A stretch of 64,000 nucleotides of DNA from Roseivirga sp. E12. Its GTDB lineage: Bacteria; Bacteroidota; Bacteroidia; Cytophagales; Cyclobacteriaceae. This document shows, piece by piece, positions 20,686 through 55,119 of this stretch (positions are counted from its first letter, which is position 1; every line of letters starts with the position of its first letter). The stretch spans positions 744,001-808,000 of the forward strand of contig NZ_JAGFMD010000001.1 of NCBI RefSeq assembly GCF_017592825.1, in the 5' to 3' direction. The notes beneath the pieces are model-generated. The model searched no databases. It was not told where the DNA came from and was given only the letters and a program-made list of their open reading frames with translations. Position numbers and translations under genes: made by a program.

Positions 20686-20717
20686 TTGTATACTAGTTCA
20701 GGTATAAGTCAAATTAA

Positions 20718-23153: not shown

Positions 23154-23155
23154 CT

Positions 23156-25552
23156 TTATTGCTCCCTTAACGTTTGTACCGGGTTAATCCTTGTGAACTT
23201 TTGGGTGCAGAAATAAATGGTGATTAATCCAACCACTGCCATTCCTGAGACCACCAACAAAGGAATGCTGGTAGTGATATTGATCCGATGTGCGAACTCA
23301 TTCAACCATTGGTTGCCGAGGTACCAAGCCAATGGTACACCAATTACCAAGGCAATCAGCATGGTGTATTTAAATTGCCTCGAGACAGCAGAGAATATGT
23401 CCTTGTAATGCGCTCCTAAAATCTTACGAATCCCTAACTCTTTCATTCTTGATTGGATATTAAGGCTCGTCATACCGAAGAGTCCGAAGAATGAAATCGC
23501 AACACTCACTATCGTGAAGAAAAGTAAGGTGTTACCAGAAGCTTTATCCTTGGCTAGAATTCTTTCATACCCCTCATTAAGAGAGTTATATTCAAAAGGC
23601 TGGTCAGGAATCAATGAATTCCAGGCACTTCCAATTGACGCAATAGCGGAAGCAGTTTCAGTTTCAGACAATTTGATATAGGCTCTGAAAAGTCTTCTTG
23701 GATTTTGATACATCAGCATTGGCTTGTCTTTTTCTCTCAGCGTACCTGCCTGAAAGTTTTTGACAATCCCGATTACGTTCAGTTGTCTTTCATATTCTCC
23801 ACTTCCACTGGTCACTTTTGGCAAGGTCTCGAGCGATTCTATTCCCATTACCTTAGCCGCAGCTTCGTTCAATATCACCGCGCTCTTATCCGTGGTCAGC
23901 TCTAAATCAAAATTTCGGCCTTCTATTAGAGATATATTCATAGAGGCTATGAAGTTCTCATCTATACTCATATGGTAAATTCGAATATCCTCTTCTTTGG
24001 GTTTGCCTAGCCAAGAATAACCAGTACTAGAGTTAAAAACTTGAATCACATTACTATCCGTAAACGTAACTGACTCAATCAATGGGTTTTGATTTAACTC
24101 TTCTACAAAAGGCCCTTTGACCTTATTGTCAAATATGTCTACAGAAACTACAGCGTCTCGTTGGAAACCTGGATCTTTTGTTTGCATGTAGTTCACTTGG
24201 CTATAAATAACCACGGCAACCACACCTATTGTCAAGGTTATAGTGAACTGTAAAATCAGTAGCACTTTACTGAGACTGACGCTCGATCTGCCGACATTGA
24301 CTTTGCCTTTCAAGGAGTCTACGGGTTTGAACTTGGATATAATCAGAGCTGGGTAAAAACCTGAACCCACAACCAGAATCGCCCAAAGTGAGACTATGAA
24401 AAGAGAGAAATTTAAATAGCCCAGTGATTCAACCATTGTACCAATATTGAAGCTGAGACCAGTAAAGCTTGCTAGTAAATCTCCGAGCACCTCAAAGAGG
24501 ATAATACTTAAAACCATACCTACCGTAACCTGCAATGCTGATTCAGTCATAAACTGAGTCATTACATTACCCCTGCTGGCACCAATGGACTTTCTGACAC
24601 CTATTTCTTTTGCGCGCTCCAAAGAACGGGCTGTAGACATATTAAAAAAGTTGATGCATACTAGCAGAACAATCAGTAGACCTATGCCAGCCAGAATAAA
24701 CATATTCTGCTTGCTCACCTTACCAGGAATGTCTCCGAAGGTTACAAAATTCTGCATATGAATATCTCTGAGAGGTTGTAAGTGTAGAACGCTACCTGTC
24801 ATGTCATACTCGCTATTTTCAACCACGATATTGGCGATCTGACTGTTGATTTGATCAGCACTCACTCCATCAATTAGTTTGACATAAGTAAAGCAGTTAG
24901 AATTGCCCCATTCTTGATCTATTGGCCTATTTTGAAAACCACCCAAAATGTCTATGCTCATCAAATAGTCCGGACGAAGATGTCTGTTTGCAGGAACATC
25001 CTTGAATACACCTCCGACAAGTAACTTCATAGGTTGGCCATCAACGTACTCATCGATTTGAATTTCCTTTCCAAGAGGGTTTTGGCCTGCGAAATACTTC
25101 TCGCTCAAGGATTCAGAGATTAGAATACTCTGCTTTTGCTTTAATGCATTATTAACTGAACCGAGCTTCAAGTCAAAGGATAAAATATCCAGAATCGCTG
25201 GATCAGCATAGTACCCGTTTCTTTCTCTTATAAGGAGATCACCGACTTTGAAAACAATGGGTCCCGTGCGCTGCACTCTCGTTGCCAATTCAACTTGGTC
25301 TACCTGTGCATCTAAATAGGGCTTAATGGCGGTCTGAACAATGACACTTATTTGGCTACCCTTGTATACATTATTAACCCTGAAAACCCTTTCAACATCA
25401 TCAATGTCTTGATCATAGCTAAACTCATAAATCACATATGTACCGATGAACAAAGCACATACTAAACCAAAGGTTAGACTTGTGATATTTACAAAAGAGA
25501 ATAGTCTCTTCTTGATCAAATTGCGATAGGCACTCTTTAGATACTTATTCAT
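23156..25552 (-). CDS. FtsX/MacB-type permease, array member 6
   Basis: 798 residues starting MNKYLKSAYRNLIKKRLFSFVNI. The ATG lies within the end of member 5 (8-base overlap), evidence of translational coupling. The first coupling motif is KEIGVRKSIGA (about 311), the second KELGIRKILGA (about 700); the midpoint motif is KPVDSLKGK and the C-terminus NPVQTLREQ, the only array member ending in Gln. The second PCD contains MNISLIEGRNFD and VILNEAAAKVMG, the conserved strand-helix pair of the family. Confidence 0.92.
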   Translation of the reverse strand: MNKYLKSAYRNLIKKRLFSFVNITSLTFGLVCALFIGTYVIYEFSYDQDIDDVERVFRVNNVYKGSQISVIVQTAIKPYLDAQVDQVELATRVQRTGPIVFKVGDLLIRERNGYYADPAILDILSFDLKLGSVNNALKQKQSILISESLSEKYFAGQNPLGKEIQIDEYVDGQPMKLLVGGVFKDVPANRHLRPDYLMSIDILGGFQNRPIDQEWGNSNCFTYVKLIDGVSADQINSQIANIVVENSEYDMTGSVLHLQPLRDIHMQNFVTFGDIPGKVSKQNMFILAGIGLLIVLLVCINFFNMSTARSLERAKEIGVRKSIGASRGNVMTQFMTESALQVTVGMVLSIILFEVLGDLLASFTGLSFNIGTMVESLGYLNFSLFIVSLWAILVVGSGFYPALIISKFKPVDSLKGKVNVGRSSVSLSKVLLILQFTITLTIGVVAVVIYSQVNYMQTKDPGFQRDAVVSVDIFDNKVKGPFVEELNQNPLIESVTFTDSNVIQVFNSSTGYSWLGKPKEEDIRIYHMSIDENFIASMNISLIEGRNFDLELTTDKSAVILNEAAAKVMGIESLETLPKVTSGSGEYERQLNVIGIVKNFQAGTLREKDKPMLMYQNPRRLFRAYIKLSETETASAIASIGSAWNSLIPDQPFEYNSLNEGYERILAKDKASGNTLLFFTIVSVAISFFGLFGMTSLNIQSRMKELGIRKILGAHYKDIFSAVSRQFKYTMLIALVIGVPLAWYLGNQWLNEFAHRINITTSIPLLVVSGMAVVGLITIYFCTQKFTRINPVQTLREQ

Positions 25553-27911
25553 TTCTTAGAGAGTTTATGGGGTTAGTTCGTGAAGCCCTAAAGGCAATGA
25601 CTGAGACTGTCAGCCATGCAATCACCAAGGATATTGTTACTACACCAAAAAGACCCCTAAGTGATAGATTCACATGGTATTCAAAGTCTTGCAGCCAAGA
25701 ATCCATCGTATAGTAAGCCAGTGGAGTCATGATAGTCAATGCCAACGCTGGCAAGACAAGCGACCTTCGCGAAAAATTAACTAGTATCTGACTGATGCTT
25801 GCACCTAGCACCTTTCTGATTCCAATTTCTTTGATACCTCGTTGTGCATTTATTGAGGTTAATCCATAAAGCCCTAAGCACGATATAAGGACAGCAATAA
25901 GGCCGAATATTTTTGCCAAGTCTTTAATGAGTAGCTCATTTTGATACATAGCCGCATGCTCTTCCGACAGGAACTTGTAGTCGAAAAGGTAGCCTGGCAT
26001 AAACTCAGCATACTTTTCCTCCAATACCTCTATTGCTCTTTTCTCTTCACCAGAAGCTGCCCTAATAGTAACATGATCCCCATTTTCTGCATAGTTGAGT
26101 ATAATGAGTGGTTGTATCTCTTCATAGACAGAACCAATATGAAAGTCTTCTACCACGCCAAGAATCTTCATGTCATTCCCCCAAAACTTCACCGCCTTGC
26201 CAATAGGGTCTTCAATGTTCATTCCTCTAACTGCAGCTTCATTCACGATAACATTCGACCAATCTGAAAGCAAGTCTTTGGAGTAGTCTCGGCCATCGAC
26301 CATTTTGAGTTTCATGGTGCTGATAAATGCAGACTCTGTAAAGAGTACTTTGAAGCTCGTCTTGTCAACTCTAGGGTCTTTACCTTCCCAAGAAAAGTCC
26401 CCCGTAGAGGCTCCAATATTGACAGGGGCATCACCTACAAGCGTTACTGCTTCAATACTTGGGTCTTGCAACAGTTCTGCCTTAAAGCTGTCGAATTTCT
26501 TAAGTAGAGCATCATCATTCTGAAGTAAGATTACCCCCTCCTTATCTACATTTCTCTGATTCTCAAAAATGTACTCAACTTGATTGTTAATGATTAAGGT
26601 GGCGTAGATCAAGAAACCGGCAATCACAAATTGAAAGACCACCAAACCCTTTCTAAAAACTCCGCCTGTCTTAGTAGTACCCTTGGTATCAACTTTGCCT
26701 TTTAAAGCCTTAACTACATTGAATCCTGATAAAACAAGCGCTGGGTACAGACCTGAGACAAGAATAGTGAATAGCCCTACTCCACCAATCAGCAACAAGA
26801 GGTTAAGGTCTAACAAGTCAAGGGCCACACTCTTGCCTGTCAAATTGTTGAATGGAACTAGTAGTACTTCTATGAGGATGACAGCAATCACTACAGAGAG
26901 CGCCACAATCAGCCCAGACTCAACCAGGAATTGCTTTATCAAGGTGAGTCTAGAGGCGCCACTGACTTTTCTAACGCCCACTTCTTTGGCTCGCTTGAAT
27001 GCATCGGCTACAGACAGGTTAATGAAGTTGATACAGGCGATGAACATTATAAATATGCCAATTAAGGCGAAAAGGTTCACATACTCTATTCTTCCTCCAG
27101 CAGACTGGCCACCTTCATAACTACCTCTAAGGTAGATATCGGTAAAAGGTTTAAGGAAGAGTGACTTCTTATTCCCTTCTTGATTTTTACGGATTAGATC
27201 CTCCATCTTTGCCTCTAGTTCCTCCCTAGAACTATTTTCAGCCAACTGTAAGAAGGTATAGATTCCAGCATTTCCCCAGCGCATAATCCATGAGTTCCTT
27301 TTTACCCAGTTCTCCATGGACAACACAAAGCCGAACTGGAATTGTCCATTCTTTGGAGGGTCTTGTACGACAGCTCTCACGATTGCGTCACGCGTATGAT
27401 CAATTTTCACCAACTCGCCTACAACTGAAGTCTTATCAAACAGCTTCAAGGCCATACTTTCGGTGAGTACCACATCACCATAGGTTGATAGACTATTTTC
27501 TTCTAACTCGCCTGCAATAATTGGGAAATTGAAAATCTGAAAAAACTCCACATCAGCTATCAAACCAATTTGTTTGAACTTTCGATCTCCCACAGCCAAT
27601 TGGTGCTCTCTATCATCTACCCTTGCCGAAAGCCCTACTTCTGGAAAATCACTATCAAGCACTCCCTTTATAATGCCGTTTTGCCTGCTGTCTGTAGCGA
27701 CCTCTCCATTGTCATAATAATCATGAGACCAAACACCGAAGGTTCTTTCAGCATTCAGGTGAAACTTGTCGTAGTTAACCTCATCACTGACCCATAGAAA
27801 AATCAATAGACTCGTAGTTAGACCCACCGCCAGACCAAATACATTGATTAACGTGAACTCTCTTTTATTTAGGAGTTTTCTAGCGGCTATTTTAAGGTTG
27901 GTCCTAAGCAT
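25545..27911 (-). CDS. FtsX/MacB-type permease, array member 5
   Basis: 788 residues starting MLRTNLKIAARKLLNKREFTLINVFGLAVG, 13 bases after member 4. Coupling motifs are KEVGVRKVSGA (about 305) and KEIGIRKVLGA (about 691), midpoint motif NVVKALKGK, C-terminus NPINSLRNE. The second PCD has LKMVDGRDYSKDL and VIVNEAAVRGMNIEDPIGK. Overlapping by 8 bases with member 6 indicates reading through as one message. Nothing suggests a pseudogene: the frame is intact and all eight expected hydrophobic segments are present. Confidence 0.92.
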   Translation of the reverse strand: MLRTNLKIAARKLLNKREFTLINVFGLAVGLTTSLLIFLWVSDEVNYDKFHLNAERTFGVWSHDYYDNGEVATDSRQNGIIKGVLDSDFPEVGLSARVDDREHQLAVGDRKFKQIGLIADVEFFQIFNFPIIAGELEENSLSTYGDVVLTESMALKLFDKTSVVGELVKIDHTRDAIVRAVVQDPPKNGQFQFGFVLSMENWVKRNSWIMRWGNAGIYTFLQLAENSSREELEAKMEDLIRKNQEGNKKSLFLKPFTDIYLRGSYEGGQSAGGRIEYVNLFALIGIFIMFIACINFINLSVADAFKRAKEVGVRKVSGASRLTLIKQFLVESGLIVALSVVIAVILIEVLLVPFNNLTGKSVALDLLDLNLLLLIGGVGLFTILVSGLYPALVLSGFNVVKALKGKVDTKGTTKTGGVFRKGLVVFQFVIAGFLIYATLIINNQVEYIFENQRNVDKEGVILLQNDDALLKKFDSFKAELLQDPSIEAVTLVGDAPVNIGASTGDFSWEGKDPRVDKTSFKVLFTESAFISTMKLKMVDGRDYSKDLLSDWSNVIVNEAAVRGMNIEDPIGKAVKFWGNDMKILGVVEDFHIGSVYEEIQPLIILNYAENGDHVTIRAASGEEKRAIEVLEEKYAEFMPGYLFDYKFLSEEHAAMYQNELLIKDLAKIFGLIAVLISCLGLYGLTSINAQRGIKEIGIRKVLGASISQILVNFSRRSLVLPALALTIMTPLAYYTMDSWLQDFEYHVNLSLRGLFGVVTISLVIAWLTVSVIAFRASRTNPINSLRNE

Positions 27912-27924
27912 AACAGTCAGCTTA

Positions 27925-30321
27925 TTATTCGTAGCGAATAGAGTTTACAGGGTTCATGCTCGCTGTTTTAATAGCGTGATATGCGACCGATATAAAGGCA
28001 ATCACCATTGCTCCCAAGCCAGTCCAGAAAAACACCTTCCACGAAATTCCGTTGGAATAGGCAAAATTCTGTAACCACTTATCCATTAGGTAGTAAGCCA
28101 GTGGCCATCCCAACACATTCGCTACCAAAACAAGTTTTAAGAAGTCTTTCGATAACGTATTCACCAATCCAAACACTTCTGCACCGAGGACTTTTCTTAT
28201 ACCGATTTCCTTTGTCCTACGCTTCATCATAAAGGCAGTTAACCCGAACAACCCAAGACATCCGATTGCAATTGAAAGGAAGGAAAAACTAGCAAAGACT
28301 TTCAAAAATTGATCTTCTGCCTGATAATGGTCGTTTACATCTTCGTCAAGAAAACTAAAGTCAAATGGTACACCTGCGGCAATTTGATTCCATTCATTTT
28401 CGAGCGACTGGAGTGTCTCACTGATACCCTCTGGTGAGACTCTGATACTCATAAAGTTCAGTCGGGTTGTCGCTCTTGAGCTTAAGGAAAATACTGTTGG
28501 GCGTATTTCATTATGCAGCGAGGCAAAATGAAAGTCTTTTACCACTCCTATTACTCTAGCGTCTTTGGTTGACCATTCTGATCCAGTAAATGCCATACCA
28601 CTCAGTTTCTTCCCTACAGGGTCTTCTAGTTTAAAGAAATCGACAGCAGCTTCATTCAAAACATAAGCCTCCATATAGTCCGTTTCAAAATCCCTGTCGA
28701 AGGCGCGTCCTTCAATGATTTCAGCACCAAGCGTCTCGAAAAAATCATGAGAGATGACCACGGTCGGTGCGGAAGTAGAGCTTTCCGCACCATCTGTTCT
28801 ATATCCTCTCCAATTCCCCACTCTAACAGCGGGGTGATTGTTACTTGCTGTAACATTCATGATGGAAGGATTACGAAGTAGTTCTTCTCTTAACAGGTCG
28901 TAATTCTCTGCCACGCTGCCAGCAAGAGGCACAACGACAACCTGTTCAGTATCTATTCCTAAATCGGCATTCCTCAAGAATTTGATTTGATTGAGAATAA
29001 TCAGCGTTGAAGCAATTAGAACAACGGCAATAAAGAATTGAAAGACCACCAGGCTATTTCGAAGGTTGAACCTTCCTCCTCCTCCAGTGAGTGCACTATT
29101 CCTAAGTACAGTGACTGTCTTCATTCTCAACAAAAAGAGGGCTGGAAAACTACCTGCAACTGCCCCAATGGTGACTGCGACAGCAAAAATAGAAAGCCCT
29201 AAAACCAAGTCATCCTGAATCCTAAAATCAAATTCACCACCTGTCAAGTTGTTAAATTGTGGAAGAGCCATTTCTACCAAAATCACAGCGCATATGCATG
29301 AAAGCAATGCGATAATGATCGACTCTGCTTGAAACTGTAGTACTTGGGCAAGTGGCCTCGCACCAAAAACCTTTTTCAAGCCTACTTCCATCCCTCGTTG
29401 AAAGGATGCAGCAATAGAGAGATTGATGTAATTAATACAAGCCAATAAGAGTATTACTACAGCGGTGGCAATAAAAATCAGCACCGTTATACGGTTGCCA
29501 TTCACACCTATCTCACCTGTCAAGTCGGAATCCAAATGAATACTCTTTAATGACTGGATGTAATATTCATAAGGAGTATTAGATTCATAAGTATCGTTCA
29601 GAAAAGTGTTTATTCGAGCCTCTAGGTCACTTGGATCCACCCCTCTCTCTAATTTGAAATAACTATAGTGGCTTGTTCCTGTAAATAATTCTGAAACCCA
29701 TGCTCCATACCAATTGATAGCGGTGGCATTGGGTATAAACATCTCTGCTTCAAAGTGTGTGTTACTCGGCAGATCTTTTACAACAGCCGCGACTTTAAAA
29801 TCAACATCAAGAATGCTCAGCAGTTGATTCATAGGGTCCTCATCACCAAAGTGTCTCTCGGCAGCAGCTTGGGACAAAACAATTGACTGTGGATCATTAA
29901 GGACTCCTTCTAAGCGACCAGCGACTAATTCAAAACTAAAGAGATCGAAGAATGTCGAATCCACTAGCATAATATCTTCCTGAAAAATGCTTTGATCACC
30001 TCTTTCAACACTAGTCGACATATTATCGAATCGTGTCGCCACTTTCATTTCAGGAAAGTTGCTCGCCAAAATAGGCAATAAGGGATAGGTAGTAGTTACC
30101 GAGTAGGTCTTAGCATCACCTCCCTGATTGTAGGCACCCGTAAGTCTATATATAGAGTCAGCATCTTCAAAATGCTCGTCATAACTCAGTTCATGTCTGA
30201 CAAAGAGGACAATCAGCACGCATGCGGCTAAACCCACTGATAGGCCAGCAATGTTGATTGAAGAATAGAGCTTATTCTTCAATAGGTTTCTAAAGGCAAT
30301 TTTAAAGTAGTTTCTGAGCAT
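27925..30321 (-). CDS. FtsX/MacB-type permease, array member 4
   Basis: 798 residues starting MLRNYFKIAFRNLLKNKLYSSINIAGLSVG, 3 bases after member 3. The first coupling motif is unusual, MEVGLKKVFGA (about 307), with Lys-Lys in place of Arg-Lys; the second is canonical, KEIGIRKVLGA (about 699). The midpoint motif is KTVTVLRNS and the C-terminus NPVNSIRYE. The second periplasmic domain contains EIIEGRAFDRDFE and YVLNEAAVDFFKLEDPVGK. The changed first motif may alter contact with an ATPase (inference). Confidence 0.92.
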   Translation of the reverse strand: MLRNYFKIAFRNLLKNKLYSSINIAGLSVGLAACVLIVLFVRHELSYDEHFEDADSIYRLTGAYNQGGDAKTYSVTTTYPLLPILASNFPEMKVATRFDNMSTSVERGDQSIFQEDIMLVDSTFFDLFSFELVAGRLEGVLNDPQSIVLSQAAAERHFGDEDPMNQLLSILDVDFKVAAVVKDLPSNTHFEAEMFIPNATAINWYGAWVSELFTGTSHYSYFKLERGVDPSDLEARINTFLNDTYESNTPYEYYIQSLKSIHLDSDLTGEIGVNGNRITVLIFIATAVVILLLACINYINLSIAASFQRGMEVGLKKVFGARPLAQVLQFQAESIIIALLSCICAVILVEMALPQFNNLTGGEFDFRIQDDLVLGLSIFAVAVTIGAVAGSFPALFLLRMKTVTVLRNSALTGGGGRFNLRNSLVVFQFFIAVVLIASTLIILNQIKFLRNADLGIDTEQVVVVPLAGSVAENYDLLREELLRNPSIMNVTASNNHPAVRVGNWRGYRTDGAESSTSAPTVVISHDFFETLGAEIIEGRAFDRDFETDYMEAYVLNEAAVDFFKLEDPVGKKLSGMAFTGSEWSTKDARVIGVVKDFHFASLHNEIRPTVFSLSSRATTRLNFMSIRVSPEGISETLQSLENEWNQIAAGVPFDFSFLDEDVNDHYQAEDQFLKVFASFSFLSIAIGCLGLFGLTAFMMKRRTKEIGIRKVLGAEVFGLVNTLSKDFLKLVLVANVLGWPLAYYLMDKWLQNFAYSNGISWKVFFWTGLGAMVIAFISVAYHAIKTASMNPVNSIRYE

Positions 30322-30324
30322 GGC

Positions 30325-32727
30325 TTATTCGTTTCTTAATGAGTCTACTGGGTTAGAATTCGCAGCCTTATAGGACTGAATGGAAATAGTGAGCACAGCA
30401 ATGCCAAAGGTGACTATAGCTGGTACCAAGAAAAGGAAAACACCTAAGGATATCTTATTGGCAAAGTTCTCTAGCCAACTGTCGATAAAATAGTATGACA
30501 CCGGTATGGCTACTATGAAGGACAAGACCACCAGCTTCGCAAAGTTCATGTTCAGCATAAGTACAAGGTTGCGAACGGATGCTCCTAATACTTTTCGTAC
30601 ACCGACCTCCTTCATACGCTGCTGGGCAGATAAGTGTGCAAGTCCAAATAGGCCAAGGCACGATATGATAATGGCTATGAGAGACGAGTTGGTAATGATG
30701 GTTTTCCATCTCACCTCCTCTTTATAGTAATCCTGATTGCTCTCTTGCTGGTAGAAGAAGTCTACAGGTTGGTAAGGCTCTATACCTCTCCAAACATTAG
30801 TTATCTCTGCACCTATCTCAGTTGAATAACTCTCCGAATACTTTACCAAAACTTGACTAAACCCTGTATTGCTAATTGCCCCGCTTTCAAGCATAACCGG
30901 CCCCACGCCAGACTTAGCAGATGAGTAAATGAAATCCTGCATTACGCCAACAATTCTATATGCCTTGGTGCCTTCATCACCTCCATCAGTTAAAAGCTCA
31001 CCAATAGGTTCGCCCTCGATTCCAATAGAGCTAAGAAATTTTTCGTTTACTACTACGTTTTGGAGTGTGTCATCACCTCGGACAAACTGATCTGGATGTG
31101 CCTTTAACTTTCGTCCCTTAAGCAGCGGAACATTCATAATGGATAGGAAGGCTGTGTCAATTTCTGAGACTACCACAAACATGTCTTTATCCTCATAGCC
31201 CACGCTTGTTGCAGAACCAAAACCATCGGTAAGTGATACTGAAGTAATATTGGGGTTTTTCAGCAATCCATTAGAAATAATACCTGCGGATGTTTGATTG
31301 TCTCTTAGGTTAATGATTGCTAGGTTCTCATCGTCATACCCTAGATCAGTATCCAAGAGCATTGAAATCTGTTGGTTCATGGCCATAGTACCTATGACCA
31401 AGATTGCAGCAACTGCAAACTGTATGAGTACGAGTCCTTTGGTTACATATTGCTTTCCCTTCAGCTTTACCCTACCTGAAAGGCTCTTAAGAATTGAAAA
31501 TCTACTGATGAAGAATGCCGGATATGTACCCGCCAATGCGGACGATACTAATACCAGCACTAGACAACCAAGTAATAGCATGGGGTCTTGAGTAATGCCA
31601 GAGGAAAAATCCTTATTTGTTAGTCTACCAAAGAAGGGTAGCAATAGTTCGGCAAGAATAAGCCCTACAATAAAAGCGATAAAGGAGGTATAGAAAGCTT
31701 CACCAAGAAACTGCCATGCAAGTTGCTTTCTCCTTGCACCTAAAACTTTTCTGACACCTATTTCCTTAGCACGAGGAATTGATCGAGCAACCGATAGATT
31801 GGCAAAATTGATACATGCCAAAATCAGAATGAAGATTCCAATGCCTGATAAAATGTAAGAGTATGTTGCACTACTACTGTTGATAATACCATCACCTCCG
31901 CTGGCATTTTCACTTAGATGTATAGCTGTTAATGGCTGTAAAATACTCTCAACGCTTCGGACAAACTCTTGGCTCTCATCTGGATTGAGAGCAAGCCTCA
32001 CTTCTGTCAGCTTTTCTTTTACATCTAAAGGGTCAGCACCTTCCTTCAGCAATAGTATGGAGGTATAACCTATGTTATTCCAGGTCCTGCTTGTGTAAAG
32101 ATCATTTTTGATTTCATATTTCTTCCAAGAGAAATAGATTTTACTTGTTAATGAAGAATTGGATGGGAAGTCCTCAACAACCGCATCGATGTAAAACTCT
32201 TCAATTTTTCCTTCGAGCTTAATTGTAAGAGCCTCTCCTGCTACATCGACTCTATTGAAATACTTAATGGCTATTTCCTCAGTGATTACAATAGAATTCA
32301 AGTCTTGAAGTACATTGTTAAGTGTACCGGAGAGCACTTCGTAATCGAAAATTTTAAAGTTCTGTGGATCCGTGAAGATGGCCTTGTATTGGTTGATAAA
32401 CTCATCTCCTTTTTTAATAATCAAAGAAGTGTTTTGATATCGGGTAAAAGTCTCAACTTCAGGAATACGATCGGCATATTCTTTTGCCTCAATGGCATTT
32501 GTAGCCGTCATTTCTTGGACACTTCCGAACCAGTCAATCTTCGAATTGACTCGATAGATTCTGTCTGCCTTTGATTGAAAACTATCGAATGTCAACTCGT
32601 CTTTCACGTAAAGGAAAATGAGCATACAACATCCAATACCCACGGCTAGGCCAGTGATATTAATAAAGGAGTAACCTTTATGCCTTGCTAGGTTTCTAAG
32701 TGCTATGGTTATATAGTTCTTTATCAT
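30325..32727 (-). CDS. FtsX/MacB-type permease, array member 3
   Basis: 800 residues from ATG 32727 (MIKNYITIALRNLARHKGYSFIN); an extension to 32796 would run into the end of member 2 and has no family similarity. It is 10 bases after member 2. Coupling motifs are KEIGVRKVLGA (about 317) and KEVGVRKVLGA (about 702), midpoint motif SILKSLSGR, C-terminus NPVDSLRNE. The N-terminal block RHKGYSFINITGLA with YVKDELTFDSF links it to the solitary permease at 12246-14678, its closest relative in the window. Confidence 0.92.
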   Translation of the reverse strand: MIKNYITIALRNLARHKGYSFINITGLAVGIGCCMLIFLYVKDELTFDSFQSKADRIYRVNSKIDWFGSVQEMTATNAIEAKEYADRIPEVETFTRYQNTSLIIKKGDEFINQYKAIFTDPQNFKIFDYEVLSGTLNNVLQDLNSIVITEEIAIKYFNRVDVAGEALTIKLEGKIEEFYIDAVVEDFPSNSSLTSKIYFSWKKYEIKNDLYTSRTWNNIGYTSILLLKEGADPLDVKEKLTEVRLALNPDESQEFVRSVESILQPLTAIHLSENASGGDGIINSSSATYSYILSGIGIFILILACINFANLSVARSIPRAKEIGVRKVLGARRKQLAWQFLGEAFYTSFIAFIVGLILAELLLPFFGRLTNKDFSSGITQDPMLLLGCLVLVLVSSALAGTYPAFFISRFSILKSLSGRVKLKGKQYVTKGLVLIQFAVAAILVIGTMAMNQQISMLLDTDLGYDDENLAIINLRDNQTSAGIISNGLLKNPNITSVSLTDGFGSATSVGYEDKDMFVVVSEIDTAFLSIMNVPLLKGRKLKAHPDQFVRGDDTLQNVVVNEKFLSSIGIEGEPIGELLTDGGDEGTKAYRIVGVMQDFIYSSAKSGVGPVMLESGAISNTGFSQVLVKYSESYSTEIGAEITNVWRGIEPYQPVDFFYQQESNQDYYKEEVRWKTIITNSSLIAIIISCLGLFGLAHLSAQQRMKEVGVRKVLGASVRNLVLMLNMNFAKLVVLSFIVAIPVSYYFIDSWLENFANKISLGVFLFLVPAIVTFGIAVLTISIQSYKAANSNPVDSLRNE

Positions 32728-32737
32728 AGTGACAGAC

Positions 32738-35104
32738 TTATTCGTTGCGAAGTACGTTAGCAGGATTCTTTTGTGTATTGAAGTAGCTATGCACACCCAA
32801 AATCACCACAGAAAGAAGTAGAACTGAGCCTACCGCTATGGCGAAATATGGCACCACGCTATCAATTCTATAAGGAAAGGATACCAACCACTTATTAATC
32901 AATAAATAGGATGTAGGAACCGAAATGAGGAGAGCCAACACAATCAACAAAGTGAACTTCTTATTCAATACCCTGATCAGATTGAGGTAACTAGCACCGA
33001 GCACCTTACGGATACTCATTTCTTTCTCTCTTAATTGATTCTCGAATGTAGATAGTGCGAATAGACCTAGGAATGCGACAACCATTAGCAAGCCTGTAAG
33101 AAGATCGAAAATGTTAACTAAGCTTTCCTCGCGACCATAAGAGTCAGCGAAGTAATCCTCCACTTCTTCCAACTCGAAATCACCATTAGTGGCAAAGCTC
33201 TCCCAGACATTCTGCAGTTGAAGCTCCACCGCAGCTCTATCGCCTTCTCTGAACTTTACCTGTAGGTTTCTAATTTGGTCCATTTGATTATCTATCAGGA
33301 TTGGGCCAATCTCAGATTTACCAGACATATAGTGAAAGTCCTTCGCAACACCCTGAACAATTTTACCGTCAATTAGCTCTCGCCCAACTGGGTTCCCCTC
33401 CCAACCTAGGAGTTTTAATGCTGCTTCATTGATAATTACAGCAGTTGAGAGTTGAGAATCTGTCAAGCCATCAAAGCCTGATCCATAGACAAACTCTAGT
33501 CCGAAAAGATCGTTGAAATCACGATCAGCAGCGCCATAGAAACAGGTTAAATTGAGCTTTTCTTCTCCCTCTCCAATCTCAAAATTTATGATTGAATTTA
33601 GTCTTGGTAATGGAGATCCGCTGACACCCTCTATTTGGGGAATCCGTCCAACCTCAGTCTTAAACTCAAGGTACTTTTCAAACATACCTGCCTTTGTCAG
33701 GTCAATGCCAATGATGTTTTCTTCGTTATAGCCTAAATCCATATTGACCAGGTATTGAGCTTGTCCCCTGATAATTAGAGCACTTGATAACAAACCTGCA
33801 CATATTAAAAACTGAAGAACAATCAGCGCTTTGCGAAATATTGCCTTCGAAGACTTAGGACTAGAACCTCTTAATACTGATGACAGGCTAAATGCAGAAA
33901 CAGTCAATGCTGGATACAAACCTGAAATCAAAACTACTAGAGACAATAGTGCTATTGGAATCCACAACACTTGAATGTTATTCACAAAATCCAATGCAAG
34001 AGACTTGTCTAGAATACTGTTGATACCTGGAAGGGTGACTTCTACAGATACAATGGCAATAATTAAGGCTAAGAGTGCCAAGAACAGGGTTTCTCCCATC
34101 TGGAAGAGGACCAACCTAGTTTTAGTAGCTCCGATAATCTTTCTTACAGCTACATCTTTAGAACGTGCAAATGACCTTGCTGTAGTAAGGTTAATGTAAT
34201 TGAAACAGGCAACTAGAAGTAACAGTCCTCCGATAAGTGAGAAGATATAAACATACTTCATCTGACCGCCAAACATTGCATTCGATGAACTCCTCATGGT
34301 TTCATTGTCCATGTAGAGATCAGTGAATTTCGTGTAATTATACTCGCCTGGGGAATCAGTGCTATCTTTGGTCGCTAAGACACGTTTTGTATCATCTAAG
34401 AGCTTGGCTGCCGTATAGTCAGATCTTGTAAGTATATAATTCAGACCCGTACCAGTACTCCATTTGTCAACATAAAAATCATAAGGCGCCACCTTCATAT
34501 TAATTAAGGCTAAAAACTCGAATTGCAGATGCGAGTTAGATGGAATTGGCTTTAGAACTCCTGAGATTCTGAAAGTCCCCATGTTTATGATTTCAATAAA
34601 CTCACCTACCGGATTTAACCCTGGAAAGTGTTTCTGGGCAATCTCCGATGAAATGATCAAATCATCTGGCGTAGCCAGAGCAGTTTCAACGTTACCATAC
34701 TTCAATTCGAAGTCAAAAACATTGAAAAGGTTGGGTTGTGTGTAATAAAAACCATCAGACTTAAAGTCTTCGTCCTTGAATTTATAGTTGATGGTTTGAG
34801 CCAGACTGATGTTGACCGCATCGATGACACCCGGAAGATCTTCCGTCATGGCCTCTCCCAACTTTACAGGAGGAAAAAGATTGAAACTATTAGACTCACC
34901 AAAGCTCATTGTAATCTTTGGCATGTAAATGTTCTCCGCATTGGTGTGCCATTTGTCATGCGTCAGCTCATCGTGGACATAAAGAGAAGTGACCAGAAAA
35001 CAGTACATACCAAGTGAAAGACCAATGATATTAACCACTGCAAAAAAGCGCTCTCTTTTGAGGCTTTTCATTCCTGACTTTAAGAATCGGATAATGTTGT
35101 TCAT
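32738..35104 (-). CDS. FtsX/MacB-type permease, array member 2 (most divergent)
   Basis: 788 residues starting MNNIIRFLKSGMKSLKRERFFAVVNI, 20 bases after member 1. Both coupling motifs differ from the siblings: KDVAVRKIIGA (about 313) and KEMSIRKVLGA (about 691), losing the usual Gly before Val/Ile-Arg-Lys. The midpoint motif is SLSSVLRGS and the C-terminus NPANVLRNE. The first periplasmic domain lacks the usual LxSIHL segment, having FTDLYMDNETM. It is intact and, like the others, has no nucleotide-binding domain. Confidence 0.92.
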   Translation of the reverse strand: MNNIIRFLKSGMKSLKRERFFAVVNIIGLSLGMYCFLVTSLYVHDELTHDKWHTNAENIYMPKITMSFGESNSFNLFPPVKLGEAMTEDLPGVIDAVNISLAQTINYKFKDEDFKSDGFYYTQPNLFNVFDFELKYGNVETALATPDDLIISSEIAQKHFPGLNPVGEFIEIINMGTFRISGVLKPIPSNSHLQFEFLALINMKVAPYDFYVDKWSTGTGLNYILTRSDYTAAKLLDDTKRVLATKDSTDSPGEYNYTKFTDLYMDNETMRSSSNAMFGGQMKYVYIFSLIGGLLLLVACFNYINLTTARSFARSKDVAVRKIIGATKTRLVLFQMGETLFLALLALIIAIVSVEVTLPGINSILDKSLALDFVNNIQVLWIPIALLSLVVLISGLYPALTVSAFSLSSVLRGSSPKSSKAIFRKALIVLQFLICAGLLSSALIIRGQAQYLVNMDLGYNEENIIGIDLTKAGMFEKYLEFKTEVGRIPQIEGVSGSPLPRLNSIINFEIGEGEEKLNLTCFYGAADRDFNDLFGLEFVYGSGFDGLTDSQLSTAVIINEAALKLLGWEGNPVGRELIDGKIVQGVAKDFHYMSGKSEIGPILIDNQMDQIRNLQVKFREGDRAAVELQLQNVWESFATNGDFELEEVEDYFADSYGREESLVNIFDLLTGLLMVVAFLGLFALSTFENQLREKEMSIRKVLGASYLNLIRVLNKKFTLLIVLALLISVPTSYLLINKWLVSFPYRIDSVVPYFAIAVGSVLLLSVVILGVHSYFNTQKNPANVLRNE

Positions 35105-35124
35105 GATATTTTGGGTTATTGGAC

Positions 35125-37494
35125 TTATTCTGTCCTAAGTGAGTTGATTGGATTTGATTTAGCAGACTTGTAAGATTGGAACATCAAAATACCCCATACC
35201 ACAACCATTAGGGCTATTAATGGCACAATCAAAAGCGCTGCATCAATAGTAATATGATAGGCAAAATCAGAAAGCCATTCAGACATAAACTGATATACTG
35301 CCGGAATTACTAACAAGGCAACAAGTGCAATTAACTTAGTCACTCCACTGTTGAGCACCCATACAATTTGAGAGATACTAGCTCCCAAAACTTTGCGAAT
35401 TCCAATTTCTTTCACCCTTTGCTCTGCCAAAAAGATCGACAAACCGAATATACCTAGACCGGCAACGAATATGGCCAGCATGCTGAATGCTGAAAATACA
35501 TCCGATAGCTTTTTCTCTTTTGAGTATTTCTCAGCGAATTGATCATCCAAGAACTCATACTCAAAAGGATAATCAGTCGAGAATCTCTCAAATACTGATT
35601 CAATATGTTCTAAGGCAGGTTTGATCCCCTGGCCACTTAATTTCACATATGCATATTCGAAACCATCCAATTGAGCTCTGAGCATAAGAGGTTTGATCTC
35701 ATCTTTAGCTGAACCGTAGATAAAGTCTTTAGCAACACCGGTCACCTTACGCGACATTAGACTGTGCTCCATCGGGTTATCCCAACCAAATTGATCTACA
35801 GCGGTTTGATTGATGATTTGTGACTTACCACGTGCAGACTCCTCCACTTGATTAAAGGAAAGCCCTTGCGCCATCTTTATACCTAATGTTTCAACAAAAT
35901 TTGGCTCAACAGACATGTAAGAGACTGCTTGATCGTCTTCAAAACCATCAACATCGAGAAAGAAAGTAGATACACCTTCGAAGACCGAAAATGAAACTCC
36001 TGAAACAGAATTAATGGAAGCATTCTTTAATAAGTCGTCTTTGAATACTTTGTAACTCTTTTGAATGCCTTGCCCCTTCAGTGGTATACCAACTACTTGG
36101 TCTTTCGTTAAACCAAAATTAATGTTTTGCATATAGTTAAACTGGGAGTATACTATAGTGGTAACACCTAATAGCCCAAGACAGATGAATATCTGAAAGC
36201 CCACCAATACCTTTCTAAAAAAGCCTCCCTGTCTACCTTGGGTAACATTTCCACTAAGAATTTGAATTGGGTTAAACTTTGAAAGATATAGCGCTGGATA
36301 GATGCCTGCCATGAAACCAACTAGCACAATAAAGCCCACTAGCAATAGATAAGTATTCGGAGAATCATAAGCTATGAACAGCTCCTTGTCTACAAATGAG
36401 TTTAATGTTGGCAATGACAATTCGGCAAGACAGATAGCCAATACAAGTGAAATAGTTGTAACAACCATCGACTCCACAAAGAATTGTCTCGCAATCTGAA
36501 AGCGATGCCCACCAACGGTTTTTCTAATACCAACTTCTTTCGCTCTTTTTGAATGCCTGGCTGTCGCCATGTTCATATAATTGATAATGGCAATACCTAA
36601 AATGACTAAGGCGATGATCATATACATCTGAGCATTTGACTTCTCACCCTTCTTGCCGAAGTATCCTCCAAAAAGCTCAGACAGGTATATATCCGTTATT
36701 GGAATAAGTTTGATTCTGTCATTAGGTCTATGTGGGTTTATGGCAATCTCCATTTTGGAGATAGCAGCATCCAAATCAGTCGAGGAATCCAACTTGATGT
36801 ATAATGGGAAAGCGGATACTGTTCCCCAATTCATAACCGTCTTAGAGGAGCTATACTTCAAAAGGTCTTTCATGTCTTTATCAGCATTTTCAAATCTCGT
36901 CAGGTAGTCAAAGTCGAAGTGTGTATTATCAGGCAAGTCTTCAAACACAGCGGTGATTGACATTTTACCAAAGTCTATGATATCAAGCTCTTTGGCAACA
37001 GCTCCCTGAACTGATCCAAACAAGCGAATCGCTTCAGACTCAGAGATGATTATATCACTAATGTCTGACATCGGCTCATTAGCATCCCCAGCAATTATCG
37101 AAACTGAAAATAGATCGATGGAAGAAGCATCGGTGTAGTAGAACTTCGAAATATTGTACTTCCCTCCGTTCGCAAGCTTAACAACGCAATCTCCCATTTG
37201 ACCAAAGCGAGAGAAATCAACTACTTCTGGCACGGACTCTTTCAACAAGGGTCCCATCGGAGCCATAGTCTGAGGCGAGTACCCTCGATTAGAACTAACA
37301 GTGTCGTCTATATATACCTGGTAGATTAATTCCTTGTCCTGATGATATTCATCATGGCTAAATTCTTTTTGAACGAATAGTGTCAACATGATAAAGCAGC
37401 ACATCCCGATTGATAACCCAAGGATGTTGATAGCGCTATAAGCCCTATTCTTCAGCAGAAACCGGTAAGCTATTTTCAAGTAGTTCTTAATCAT
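35125..37494 (-). CDS. FtsX/MacB-type permease, array member 1 (first)
   Basis: 789 residues, the promoter-proximal gene. The family is the FtsX/MacB permease superfamily: each protein has two fused units, each made of one helix, a periplasmic MacB-PCD domain and three helices. Members elsewhere work as mechanotransmission machines driven by a separate cytosolic ATPase. Here the first coupling motif is KEVGIRKTVGG (about 316) and the second KEIGIRKVLGA (about 694); midpoint motif NPIQILSGN, C-terminus NPINSLRTE. The ATG is about 14 bases downstream of the start predicted from the sigma-54 promoter at 37520-37534. Substrate and ATPase are unknown. Confidence 0.93.
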   Translation of the reverse strand: MIKNYLKIAYRFLLKNRAYSAINILGLSIGMCCFIMLTLFVQKEFSHDEYHQDKELIYQVYIDDTVSSNRGYSPQTMAPMGPLLKESVPEVVDFSRFGQMGDCVVKLANGGKYNISKFYYTDASSIDLFSVSIIAGDANEPMSDISDIIISESEAIRLFGSVQGAVAKELDIIDFGKMSITAVFEDLPDNTHFDFDYLTRFENADKDMKDLLKYSSSKTVMNWGTVSAFPLYIKLDSSTDLDAAISKMEIAINPHRPNDRIKLIPITDIYLSELFGGYFGKKGEKSNAQMYMIIALVILGIAIINYMNMATARHSKRAKEVGIRKTVGGHRFQIARQFFVESMVVTTISLVLAICLAELSLPTLNSFVDKELFIAYDSPNTYLLLVGFIVLVGFMAGIYPALYLSKFNPIQILSGNVTQGRQGGFFRKVLVGFQIFICLGLLGVTTIVYSQFNYMQNINFGLTKDQVVGIPLKGQGIQKSYKVFKDDLLKNASINSVSGVSFSVFEGVSTFFLDVDGFEDDQAVSYMSVEPNFVETLGIKMAQGLSFNQVEESARGKSQIINQTAVDQFGWDNPMEHSLMSRKVTGVAKDFIYGSAKDEIKPLMLRAQLDGFEYAYVKLSGQGIKPALEHIESVFERFSTDYPFEYEFLDDQFAEKYSKEKKLSDVFSAFSMLAIFVAGLGIFGLSIFLAEQRVKEIGIRKVLGASISQIVWVLNSGVTKLIALVALLVIPAVYQFMSEWLSDFAYHITIDAALLIVPLIALMVVVWGILMFQSYKSAKSNPINSLRTE

Positions 37495-51277: not shown

Positions 51278-52318
51278 TTATGTCTCGTCTAAACTGTTTT
51301 CTTTAAAGCGTGCATATGCCTTCGCATAAGAATCTTGCGTGTCAAAAAAGTAATTCCTGAAATTCAGAAACAATTGATAAGGCTTAAAAACAAGCCTATC
51401 ATAGTTGCTCACCTCCAAACCAAGTTGCCTCGCCACCTTGTCTCCTAACAAGTGAATCATAAATGGTTTTGTTAAACCCTCCAATGGAGAGTCAATCACA
51501 GCTTTTTCGTAATACCTATACAAAGAGTCTGTAAGCAATACTCCTGCCTCAGAGGTCCTGAAATGTCTAGTTCGAATGTCCTTTTCCAGCTGGAATGCGT
51601 CTTTATTGGAATCTGGAAGCAGTCTTGGGTCTAAACCCAATAGTAATCCAATTTTATTCCAATAGTTGATATAGTCATAGGCCAAACGAGGTTCTATAAA
51701 CCTGCCTAATTTGCGTAAGCCTCTAATGGCAATCAGCGAAAAAGACAGGTTAGTGCCTGCCATATCCTCTTGATTGATTGGCTTACCTTTCTCCGAATCA
51801 TTCCAGTCACCGGATTGACTAATGTACCATCGTGTAACTGAATGTAACAGTCTTACGTTTAGAATGCTGATTAAGGCGTTCCCTTCTGGTTTAAAGGCTT
51901 TCTTATTTGTCACATCGAAAACAAACCCTGCAGTATCCATCAAACGCCTAGCTGGATCATCTAGAATACGTTTTGACTTCACGAGCACCTCGGCTCCATA
52001 AGCCGCAGTATAGCAATAGGGTAAGCTAAGGAAACCCAACAGTAGCATAATATCTGAAGCATATACATTAAAAAAATCCTGCCCCTTCAACAGCTCTTCC
52101 TCATCAAACTTACTTGCTGTAGAAGTGATGTTTAAATAAAGTGCATGGAGTTCATCAAATGCTCCCTCAGGTAAGGCATCTTCATTATGACCTAGAGAAG
52201 CTAGGTGAGATTGGAGTAAGTCTTTGTGTGCTGGAAAGTACTTCGCAATCACTCGATCAGCCAAAGGATCTTGGAGTTCACGAAAAGCATCCAGCCAGGT
52301 GCCTGTGTGTAATTCCAT
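51278..52318 (-). CDS. MpaB/DUF2236-family oxygenase-like protein
   Basis: 346 residues. The DUF2236 pattern is seen in NVYASDIMLLLGFLSLPYCYTAAYGAEVL, the RLLDTAGF-like RLMDTAGFVFDV, LLHSVTRWYIS (conserved His and Arg), INQEDMAGTNLSFSLIAIRGLRKLG and YINYWNKIGLLLGLDPRLLP. Family members include the haem-containing latex-clearing protein Lcp and fungal MpaB; the His and Arg residues would contact haem (knowledge of the family). The substrate here is unknown. Monocistronic, divergent from the TolB-like gene. Confidence 0.85.
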   Translation of the reverse strand: MELHTGTWLDAFRELQDPLADRVIAKYFPAHKDLLQSHLASLGHNEDALPEGAFDELHALYLNITSTASKFDEEELLKGQDFFNVYASDIMLLLGFLSLPYCYTAAYGAEVLVKSKRILDDPARRLMDTAGFVFDVTNKKAFKPEGNALISILNVRLLHSVTRWYISQSGDWNDSEKGKPINQEDMAGTNLSFSLIAIRGLRKLGRFIEPRLAYDYINYWNKIGLLLGLDPRLLPDSNKDAFQLEKDIRTRHFRTSEAGVLLTDSLYRYYEKAVIDSPLEGLTKPFMIHLLGDKVARQLGLEVSNYDRLVFKPYQLFLNFRNYFFDTQDSYAKAYARFKENSLDET

Positions 52319-53438: not shown

Positions 53439-53577
53439 GCCATTTACAATTTTATATATCGAAAGTATTTCGGAACTTCAACCGGATTTTTTTAATGGAA
53501 ATGATCCGTCAATATTCTTTTAATCGTAATATTGCCGATCATTTAGTTGGCTATTTCACTAGAACAAAACTCAAAAC

Positions 53578-54633
53578 ATGTTCAAGACATATACATTCCC
53601 TAGTGTTTTCGAGGGAAATAATACAGACTTAAGAAACGTTTCTCCAGACCTTATTAACGGTCTTAAACTATATCATAATGGCGATGGTTACGTGGTTGGT
53701 AACCTCGCGCTAACAGAAGGAGTTTCTCCTCACAGAAATATCAATAGCGCACCTGACGAGCTTGATTACCACCTCCTATTGAAGTCTGGTATGCTGATTG
53801 CCAACCAGAAGCTTGGTAATCCTTTGACCCTTTCTACCGGCTTTCCTTTCTCTACATTTCAACTTTATAAAGAAATGGCGAGCAACCTCATAAATGCTCA
53901 GCATGTAATCGAATATGATGCAGCTACTTATGGAGGCGGTACTAGAAAAAACGTCCAGGTAGAAATTGACAATGTTCAGGTAATCCCAGAGGTTATTAGC
54001 TGTGCCATTGCATTGCGTAAAGGCCTTCAACAAGCCACTGGCAACTTCTTTGTAATGTCACTTGGTTATGGAACACTAGAGGGCCTTTTGAGTACTGAAG
54101 GTGGTATTGTTCAGAGAACATCACTCTCGACTTATGGCCTACGTTATGCTGTGAACTTGCTGGAAAAAGAATTAGCTAAAACATACTATCTGGAATTGAA
54201 AACAGAGCATCAAATTGATGCTGCTTTCCAAAAGGGAGTTATTTTCTTAAACAGAAAACGTATTGATATTAAGGAGATTAGAGACAAAGTATTAAAGCAA
54301 TACTATGAAGACGTAATCTCTCCTGCAATGAGAAAAGCCTTCAACGATAATGACTTTACTATCTCACACGAGATGTTCTTAGCCGGGGGTGGTGCAATGT
54401 ACCCTATCCTAGTTGACTGCTTCAAAAAGGAATTCCAGGATGTACTTGACCTCCAAGTAGCAAACGAACCACAAACCCTTGCAAGCCGAGGCTACTGCAT
54501 TAACTCTGCCCAATTGAATGGTGGTGTAAAAAGCAATGCGGTTGGATTGGATATTGGTAATGCCACCACTATCCTTTCTGTTTTTGACGAAAATGGCGTG
54601 ACTTCAAATTCACCTGGTCCATCTGATTACTAA
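53578..54633 (+). CDS. Actin-like (ALP/ParM-type) protein with apparently circularly permuted phosphate-1 motif
   Basis: 351 residues. The body follows the bacterial/archaeal actin-like order: YTFPSVFEG (residues 5-13), DGYVVGNLAL, LTLSTGFPFSTF, a phosphate-2 segment FFVMSLGYGTLEG (157-169), the adenosine motif AGGGAM (269-274) and the closing EPQTLASRGYC (297-307). The phosphate-1 hairpin, normally the very N-terminus (hhGhDhGNxxTK), is absent there. It instead appears at the C-terminus as AVGLDIGNATTILSVFDENG (321-340). An in-frame stop just before the ATG excludes a missed N-terminal extension. The phosphate-2 Asp is replaced by Ser161, so hydrolysis may be altered. The stop overlaps the bactofilin start (TAATG). 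Confidence 0.85.
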   Translation: MFKTYTFPSVFEGNNTDLRNVSPDLINGLKLYHNGDGYVVGNLALTEGVSPHRNINSAPDELDYHLLLKSGMLIANQKLGNPLTLSTGFPFSTFQLYKEMASNLINAQHVIEYDAATYGGGTRKNVQVEIDNVQVIPEVISCAIALRKGLQQATGNFFVMSLGYGTLEGLLSTEGGIVQRTSLSTYGLRYAVNLLEKELAKTYYLELKTEHQIDAAFQKGVIFLNRKRIDIKEIRDKVLKQYYEDVISPAMRKAFNDNDFTISHEMFLAGGGAMYPILVDCFKKEFQDVLDLQVANEPQTLASRGYCINSAQLNGGVKSNAVGLDIGNATTILSVFDENGVTSNSPGPSDY

Positions 54634-55106
54634 TGAGTAAGAAAGAATCAGCGGCAATCAATCCTTCTACCTACATTACGCAGGTTAGAAATGGCTCTGT
54701 GATTTCGGGTAACATGAAATCTGAACACAGCATTCGTGTGGATGGCTTTGTAACAGGTGATTTAATCTCAAGTGAGAAAATCATTATTGGTAGTCACGGT
54801 GAAATTGGCGGTAACCTCAGTGGCACTGACATTACCATCGATGGTTATGTAAACGGAGACGTTTTGGCTAATGGTTTGCTTCATATCTCAAAAACAGCCA
54901 AAATCTACGGCAAAATCTATTCAAAGCGTATTTCTGTAGAGAATGGAGCCGAGATGAATGGAAAAGTTAACGTGGGTGATGAGGTAGAGTTGCCAGAGTT
55001 GAACACTAGTTCACCGTCTCGATCGACACAAAAAGTTACATTTACGACTACCACTTCTCAAGAAGATGAAGATCGTAAGGACAATTACGGAGGAGTAGCC
55101 TGGTAG
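54633..55106 (+). CDS. Bactofilin
   Basis: 157 residues. The central bactofilin (DUF583) domain, about residues 15-110, shows the right-handed beta-helix pattern with repeating hydrophobic-Gly rungs: [78 protein letters not shown] disordered Ser/Thr-rich tail follows (TSSPSRSTQ...). Bactofilins polymerise without nucleotide and act as scaffolds for cell shape, adhesion or polar structures. The ATG shares a base with the stop of the actin-like gene, so the two are made together. An intrinsic terminator overlaps its stop codon. Confidence 0.96.
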
Positions 55107-55119
55107 AACCGGGCTTTTT
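55097..55119 (+). terminator. Terminator overlapping the bactofilin stop
   Basis: Stem AGCCTGG (55097-55103) / CCGGGCT (55109-55115), one G-U-type pair, 5-base loop containing the TAG stop, followed by TTTTT. It should end the actin/bactofilin transcript. Confidence 0.75.

Follow-up and report, generated by a model that had tools for sequence, protein, structure and literature searches.

Does a gene of Roseivirga sp. E12 encode an actin whose chain is circularly permuted, or a normal actin-like protein (ALP) that has lost its true N-terminus? The gene lies in the window analysed here, a stretch of 64,000 nucleotides, and its product has actin strand 3 as its first strand, with the phosphate-1 hairpin AVGLDIGNATT (residues 321-331) at the C-terminal end (Table 1). 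The first-pass annotation had described this order, and the translation bears out the positions it gave for TFPSV (6-10), SLGYGTLE (161-168), GGG (270-272) and AVGLDIGNATT. It had also claimed that no N-terminal extension is hidden, which agrees with our frame checks: an in-frame TAG lies five codons 5' of the ATG, and the phosphate-1 motif is absent from all three upstream frames, translated from position 53440 on.

Table 1. Features of the permuted ALP gene and of its linked bactofilin gene (positions are those of the window)
Feature	Position	Strand	Basis or remark
Circularly permuted ALP, 351 aa	53578..54633	+	ATG start; ORF, Pfam, model
TAG, in-frame stop 5' of the ALP ATG	53560..53562	+	Excludes a hidden N-terminal extension in that frame
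Strand at the new N-terminus, residues 2-8 (strand 3 in a normal ALP)	53581..53601	+	ALP_N match starts at 17; model strand
E138 of ALP	53989..53991	+	Identical in 79/79 members
Phosphate-2 loop SLGYGTLE, residues 161-168, Ser for Asp	54058..54081	+	Conservation; weak DnaK/FtsA alignment
GGG adenosine motif, residues 270-272	54385..54393	+	Identical in 79/79 members
Relocated phosphate-1 hairpin, formed by strands 1 and 2 (residues 321-336)	54538..54585	+	Rotation test, conservation, model
Bactofilin, 157 aa	54633..55106	+	Pfam Bactofilin 80.6 bits (residues 18-112), above cut-off; tree
Bactofilin core	54684..54968	+	Core scan
TGG codon of the bactofilin C-terminal Trp (...DNYGGVAW)	55101..55103	+	Sequence
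Terminator-like hairpin overlapping the bactofilin gene end	55097..55115	+	Consensus match only

The permuted order is a property of the whole family. We collected 82 distinct matching ORFs, of which 79 are full-length, including the window's own (the partial ORFs L084, L118 and L121 were left out of the order count). All 79 carry the phosphate-1 motif near the C-terminal end, and D325, G327 and N328 of this motif are identical in every one of them. A normal N-terminal phosphate-1 motif in homologues, which the annotation had named as evidence against a permutation, was looked for and found in none (0/79). The reading in which the ALP is not permuted, its true N-terminus being lost through a frameshift or a wrong start and its C-terminal motif belonging to an unrelated tail, is very improbable: nothing was found in its favour, and the stop before the ATG, the empty upstream frames, the order seen in 79/79 members and the rotation test described below all speak against it. 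A frameshift or wrong start was ruled out by the first three of these observations, chance or assembly error by the 79/79 full-length members that share the order, and an unrelated C-terminal tail by the comparison of rotated with scrambled tails (one scramble per member).

The circular permutation is further supported by this rotation test, which relies on the Pfam profile ALP_N (PF17989). The native protein matches the profile with 38.6 bits, above the curated cut-off of 26.3 bits, its residues 3-138 covering profile positions 17-145 of 148; the first 16 positions, left unmatched, correspond to the phosphate-1 hairpin. With the tail moved to the front, the score is 46.6 bits over positions 1-145, against 39.7 bits over positions 16-145 when a scrambled tail is placed there. 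For five diverged homologues, the rotated and scrambled scores are 56.6 and 46.7, 44.8 and 35.8, 56.0 and 50.0, 52.4 and 45.8, and 50.6 and 45.8 bits, respectively. In all six members tried (the window ALP as a whole protein, the five others as N-domain pieces, with one scrambled-tail control each), rotated sequences start at profile position 1 and scrambled ones at 16 or 17, and rotation gains 4.8 to 9.9 bits over the scrambled tail. Across the family, ALP_N matches 64/79 members (E <= 0.01). The C-terminal domain profile MreB-like_C (PF21522) matches 75/79 members at E up to 0.01; on the window ALP it covers residues 181-274 with 23.7 bits, below its curated cut-off of 27.8.

Other remote searches were also run. 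The duplicated and concatenated ALP, compared with Pfam, gave many spurious families and no ALP_N entry, and NCBIfam gave no match near a cut-off. Against PDB sequences, phmmer returned nothing at E up to 1 with the native protein as query and only unrelated matches with the rotated one. The family profile retrieved three weak matches from the same sequences, to a ribosomal protein (E 0.018), to Hsp70 (E 0.63, its pieces in permuted order) and to another protein (E 0.91). Swapped order was also seen, with very weak scores, when this profile was aligned with the DnaK (three pieces) and FtsA (two pieces) of the same genome as the window.

Consistent with these results, an AlphaFold2 model of the window ALP predicts an actin fold. 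Built from 79 sequences, it has a pLDDT of 92.1 and a pTM of 0.90 (five models, pLDDT 91.0 to 92.1); with 11 sequences, the pLDDT is 75. The tail forms two predicted strands, 321-326 and 330-336, behind a short linker at about residues 314-320, and the ten-residue mean pLDDT is 94 for residues 321-330 and 86 for 331-340, with low confidence from 340 on. Since strands 1 and 2 and the phosphate-1 loop stand at the C-terminus, it would be the end of the chain that closes the nucleotide pocket. Foldseek ranks the pCBH ParM first (6ixw, E 7.2e-15, TM 0.70), then Ta0583 (2fsj/2fsk), a chromosomal ParM (8x1i) and CorM (9rmi), with Alp7A (5ec0) at rank 12; Hsp70-type folds stand lower in the list, and neither FtsA nor PilM folds are among the best 50 rows. 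Foldseek aligns in sequence order, and these matches do not place the hairpin itself. The annotation had also counted against a permutation a tail that neither pairs beside the N-terminal strand nor sits at the nucleotide phosphates; the evidence on this point is indirect, namely the first 16 ALP_N positions, which the relocated tail fills, and the good confidence of both predicted tail strands.

At the active site, the place that the first-pass annotation gave to the phosphate-2 loop (161-168) stands, and the Asp usual for this motif is missing from it: residue 161 is Ser in 74, Gly in 4 and Asn in 1 of the 79 members, and never Asp. In weak alignments, this residue stands opposite an Asp of the DnaK and FtsA of the same genome. 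In ParM and actin, the phosphate-2 Asp is one of the residues that keep the metal and the attacking water in place; E138 presumably corresponds to the catalytic Glu found in ParM-type proteins. The absence of the Asp therefore suggests slow or absent hydrolysis, and its loss could even mean that the nucleotide site is inactive.

Homologues of the window ALP were found in 11/98 genomes of its family, in 9/291 genomes drawn from the order, in 24/395 drawn from the phylum, and in 19/117 and 31/244 genomes of draws around two distant members. In a species-wide genome collection, two peptide patterns typical of close relatives retrieved 42 loci with titles that all belong to Bacteroidota. All these samples overlap. 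The members come from at least nine family groups, and the nearest homologue, from Roseivirga, shares 93% identity. A search of 247 genomes with ALP_N gave 9 matches, spread over 8 genomes, and every match begins between profile positions 16 and 21. No relative of normal order was found among the 79 members or by this 247-genome search, which does not exclude one since it missed the window's own genome. In plasmid and phage collections, tblastn with the window ALP gave no match, and none of the 80 stretches of viral contigs that matched a pattern encodes a relative; a plasmid or phage origin was ruled out on the lack of relatives in plasmid, phage and viral collections. Three genomes of one group contain two permuted ALPs each (L073/L086, L075/L085 and L109/L107), and the two copies belong to distinct clades of the tree, a pattern that suggests an ancient duplication.

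Function is hinted at above all by a gene absent from the first-pass annotation, the bactofilin gene 3' of the ALP. In the window, the two genes share one base, the last of the ALP stop codon being the first of the bactofilin gene. Of 80 distinct loci, 64 have a bactofilin gene directly downstream of the ALP, and five others have one on the same strand at a distance of 0.4-1.25 kb downstream. The remaining 11 have none in the DNA examined, some flanks being only 1.5 kb long; nine genomes of these loci encode a bactofilin elsewhere, always M23-adjacent and never with an aromatic end, so the ALP can occur without a linked partner. Other genes flanking the ALP change between lineages, as seen in a survey that lost one locus, L127, to its overlap filter. 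An M23 gene is present at only 7/80 loci. At L123, Pfam gives the gene order M23 peptidase, ALP, TPR protein, bactofilin, the latter without an aromatic end; L144 and L067 share this spacing (the TPR and M23 scans cover L123 alone). The genome of the window also encodes MreB and a second bactofilin, which adjoins an M23 gene and ends in Ala. In a tree of bactofilin cores, one change separates 61 linked from 41 other sequences, a count that omits seven rows with an ALP 0.5-1.3 kb away; this tree has few columns and many long branches, and the support for the group of other bactofilins is modest (73). Near the ALP locus, positions 51278-52318 (- strand) of the window encode a protein with an MPAB/Lcp-type oxygenase domain.

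The linked bactofilins, defined by an ORF start less than 500 bases from the ALP stop, share an aromatic C-terminal end. Trp is the last residue in 59 of 67 and lies within the last three residues in 64, and the other three end in Phe. Bactofilins located 0.5-1.3 kb from the ALP were counted apart (Trp end 0/3, Phe end 1/3). Among 92 bactofilins not directly beside an ALP, 66 of which adjoin an M23 gene, one ends in Trp (L237) and two in Phe (L212 and L239); the contrast of 59/67 with 1/92 is one among related sequences, and Fisher values computed on it are no real probabilities. This control was gathered from 93 loci with one ORF dropped (31 + 13 + 48); it omits the ALP-adjacent bactofilins and four weak matches in longer frames, and includes three bactofilins separated from the ALP by a gene. 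A narrower and biased control, made of the best-scoring bactofilin loci and the one of the window's genome, has 0/31 aromatic ends. All end counts are restricted to ORFs that reach a stop within the locus and are no longer than 320 aa. Finally, 13 of 14 genomes with no bactofilin by the ALP, or with a more distant one, hold 14 bactofilins in total, and an aromatic end occurs only in the one near the ALP of genome G487.

Two other Trp-ended proteins were noted. The L237 bactofilin (L237:1508-2050) ends in ...NLNLW and is encoded, behind an ORF that we take to be aconitase-like, in G038, a genome of 88% completeness in which the searches gave no permuted ALP. At L047 (6001-7296), a permuted ALP has 110 residues from the motif to the end, compared with 15-32 in most members, and ends in ...LISGTW; no bactofilin was found in this 13-kb locus.

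The reading that we favour is that the ALP of the window is a putatively nucleotide-binding, permuted actin of the ParM/Ta0583 type, from a family that is chromosomal in Bacteroidota and usually works with a dedicated second bactofilin encoded directly 3' (probability about 0.6). With ParM/Alp-type proteins (ALP_N; 6ixw, 5ec0, 8x1i) it shares the predicted actin fold, the N-domain profile, the GGG motif and a conserved Glu after Pro. Unlike them, it has strands 1-2 and phosphate-1 at the C-terminus and Ser for Asp in phosphate-2, so that their motif order (phosphate-1, phosphate-2, adenosine) is replaced in 79/79 members by one in which phosphate-1 comes last. Plasmid ParM goes with a ParR-type adaptor; the ALP, unlike ParM, usually adjoins a bactofilin. 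The archaeal actin homologue Ta0583 resembles the ALP in its C-terminal domain profile (MreB-like_C) and is among the top folds; its motif order is normal. To our knowledge, no natural permutation of a polymerising actin has been described. No open-access paper on a permuted actin, ParM, MreB or FtsA was found, subscription papers and most preprints being outside the scope of this search; in the excerpts of PMC6695626, which combines ParM and circular permutation, the permuted protein is the fluorescent one. Likewise, among the open-access matches listed for bactofilin with actin-like proteins, Bacteroidetes, Salinibacter or tryptophan, the titles and the openings of the abstracts show no such pairing.

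Two described systems offer partial parallels. Bactofilins and M23 peptidases form a shape-determining module, according to the excerpts of PMC10945521. This module resembles the ALP locus in that a bactofilin belongs to a tight gene pair, and M23 genes are present at 7/80 ALP loci; it differs, as far as those excerpts go, in that the partner is actin-like at the ALP locus, where the linked bactofilins form their own part of the tree and have an aromatic end. In McdB, an invariant C-terminal Trp, partly replaceable by other aromatic residues, docks a positioning adaptor to its cargo (PMC11321042, in the sections consulted). The linked bactofilins have a similarly conserved C-terminal Trp; McdB is unrelated to bactofilin, on which the Trp sits here.

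The usual presence of the ALP beside its own aromatic-ended bactofilin suggests an undescribed two-part cell skeleton. By analogy with the two systems above, we propose that the ALP would give nucleotide control to the bactofilin scaffold, with the aromatic tail as the point of contact. The permuted ALP would bind ATP and, because Ser replaces the phosphate-2 Asp, would hydrolyse it slowly or not at all; in its ATP-bound form it may build a filament or an adaptor coupled to the nucleotide-free bactofilin scaffold, the simplest coupling being through the aromatic peptide that terminates the bactofilin tail. Like bactofilin-M23 modules, the pair may then determine where envelope or cell-wall activities take place. 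Computation supports the permutation and its conservation, the gene pair, the distinctness of the linked bactofilins and their terminal aromatic residue, whereas ATP binding, polymerisation, docking of the tail and the role in the cell are our inferences. In its strongest version, in which the ALP itself forms filaments, the pair would be the first actin filament system with a natural circular permutation, a composite cytoskeleton of actin and bactofilin where the bactofilin C-terminal peptide docks on a slow- or non-hydrolysing ALP and brings the nucleotide-free scaffold under nucleotide control; we put this version forward tentatively, as one that has the odds against it. The proposal as a whole has to be weighed against a permuted ALP that does not polymerise and serves as a nucleotide-gated adaptor, similar to FtsA, PilM or Hsp70, to regulate or place the bactofilin polymer. 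Such an adaptor is a real possibility, if clearly short of even odds: it would suit the loss of the phosphate-2 Asp in 79/79 members, the neighbouring bactofilin does belong to a polymer-forming family, and Hsp70-type folds appear lower in the Foldseek list, whereas the top folds (ParM, Ta0583, CorM and Alp7A), the lack of FtsA and PilM in the best 50 rows and the ALP_N matches of 64/79 members argue for the ParM side. A domain swap, in which the C-terminal hairpin completes the neighbouring subunit and produces a strand-exchanged filament, is improbable; such an exchange is conceivable for a hairpin that follows a short linker at the free end of a chain, and the monomer model is compatible with it, but the single chain is already predicted to hold the hairpin with good confidence.

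The role of the bactofilin Trp can be read in other ways that are compatible with the two-part skeleton proposed above. As an anchor at the membrane interface, as a dock for a third protein rather than for the ALP, or as a by-product of an overlapping terminator, it has a chance that we place not far below even. The L047 ALP, with its own Trp-ended tail and no adjacent bactofilin, implies that such a Trp may bind something other than the ALP and, together with the Trp-ended bactofilin L237 from a genome without a detected ALP, leaves room for a third partner or the membrane as the target. The terminator version draws on the hairpin that overlaps the Trp codon in the window; an overlap with the last bactofilin codons is seen in only 11/67 linked loci, of which the Roseivirga group accounts for nine, and therefore does not explain the terminal residue in general.

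Few folds are as old or as thoroughly studied as that of actin, whose chain order has been taken as fixed. A conserved permuted family shows that this fold tolerates re-wiring and is retained by selection afterwards, and the ALP offers a natural way to test which termini are needed for filaments. The association with an aromatic-ended bactofilin would link the nucleotide-driven and nucleotide-free cytoskeletons of bacteria, and offers a testable candidate docking peptide.

Elsewhere in the window, a long tandem array occupies positions 18331-37494 (- strand), with eight ORFs in a row, each 784-823 aa long and all in one direction. Scans of four of these identified MacB/FtsX-type permeases in every case.
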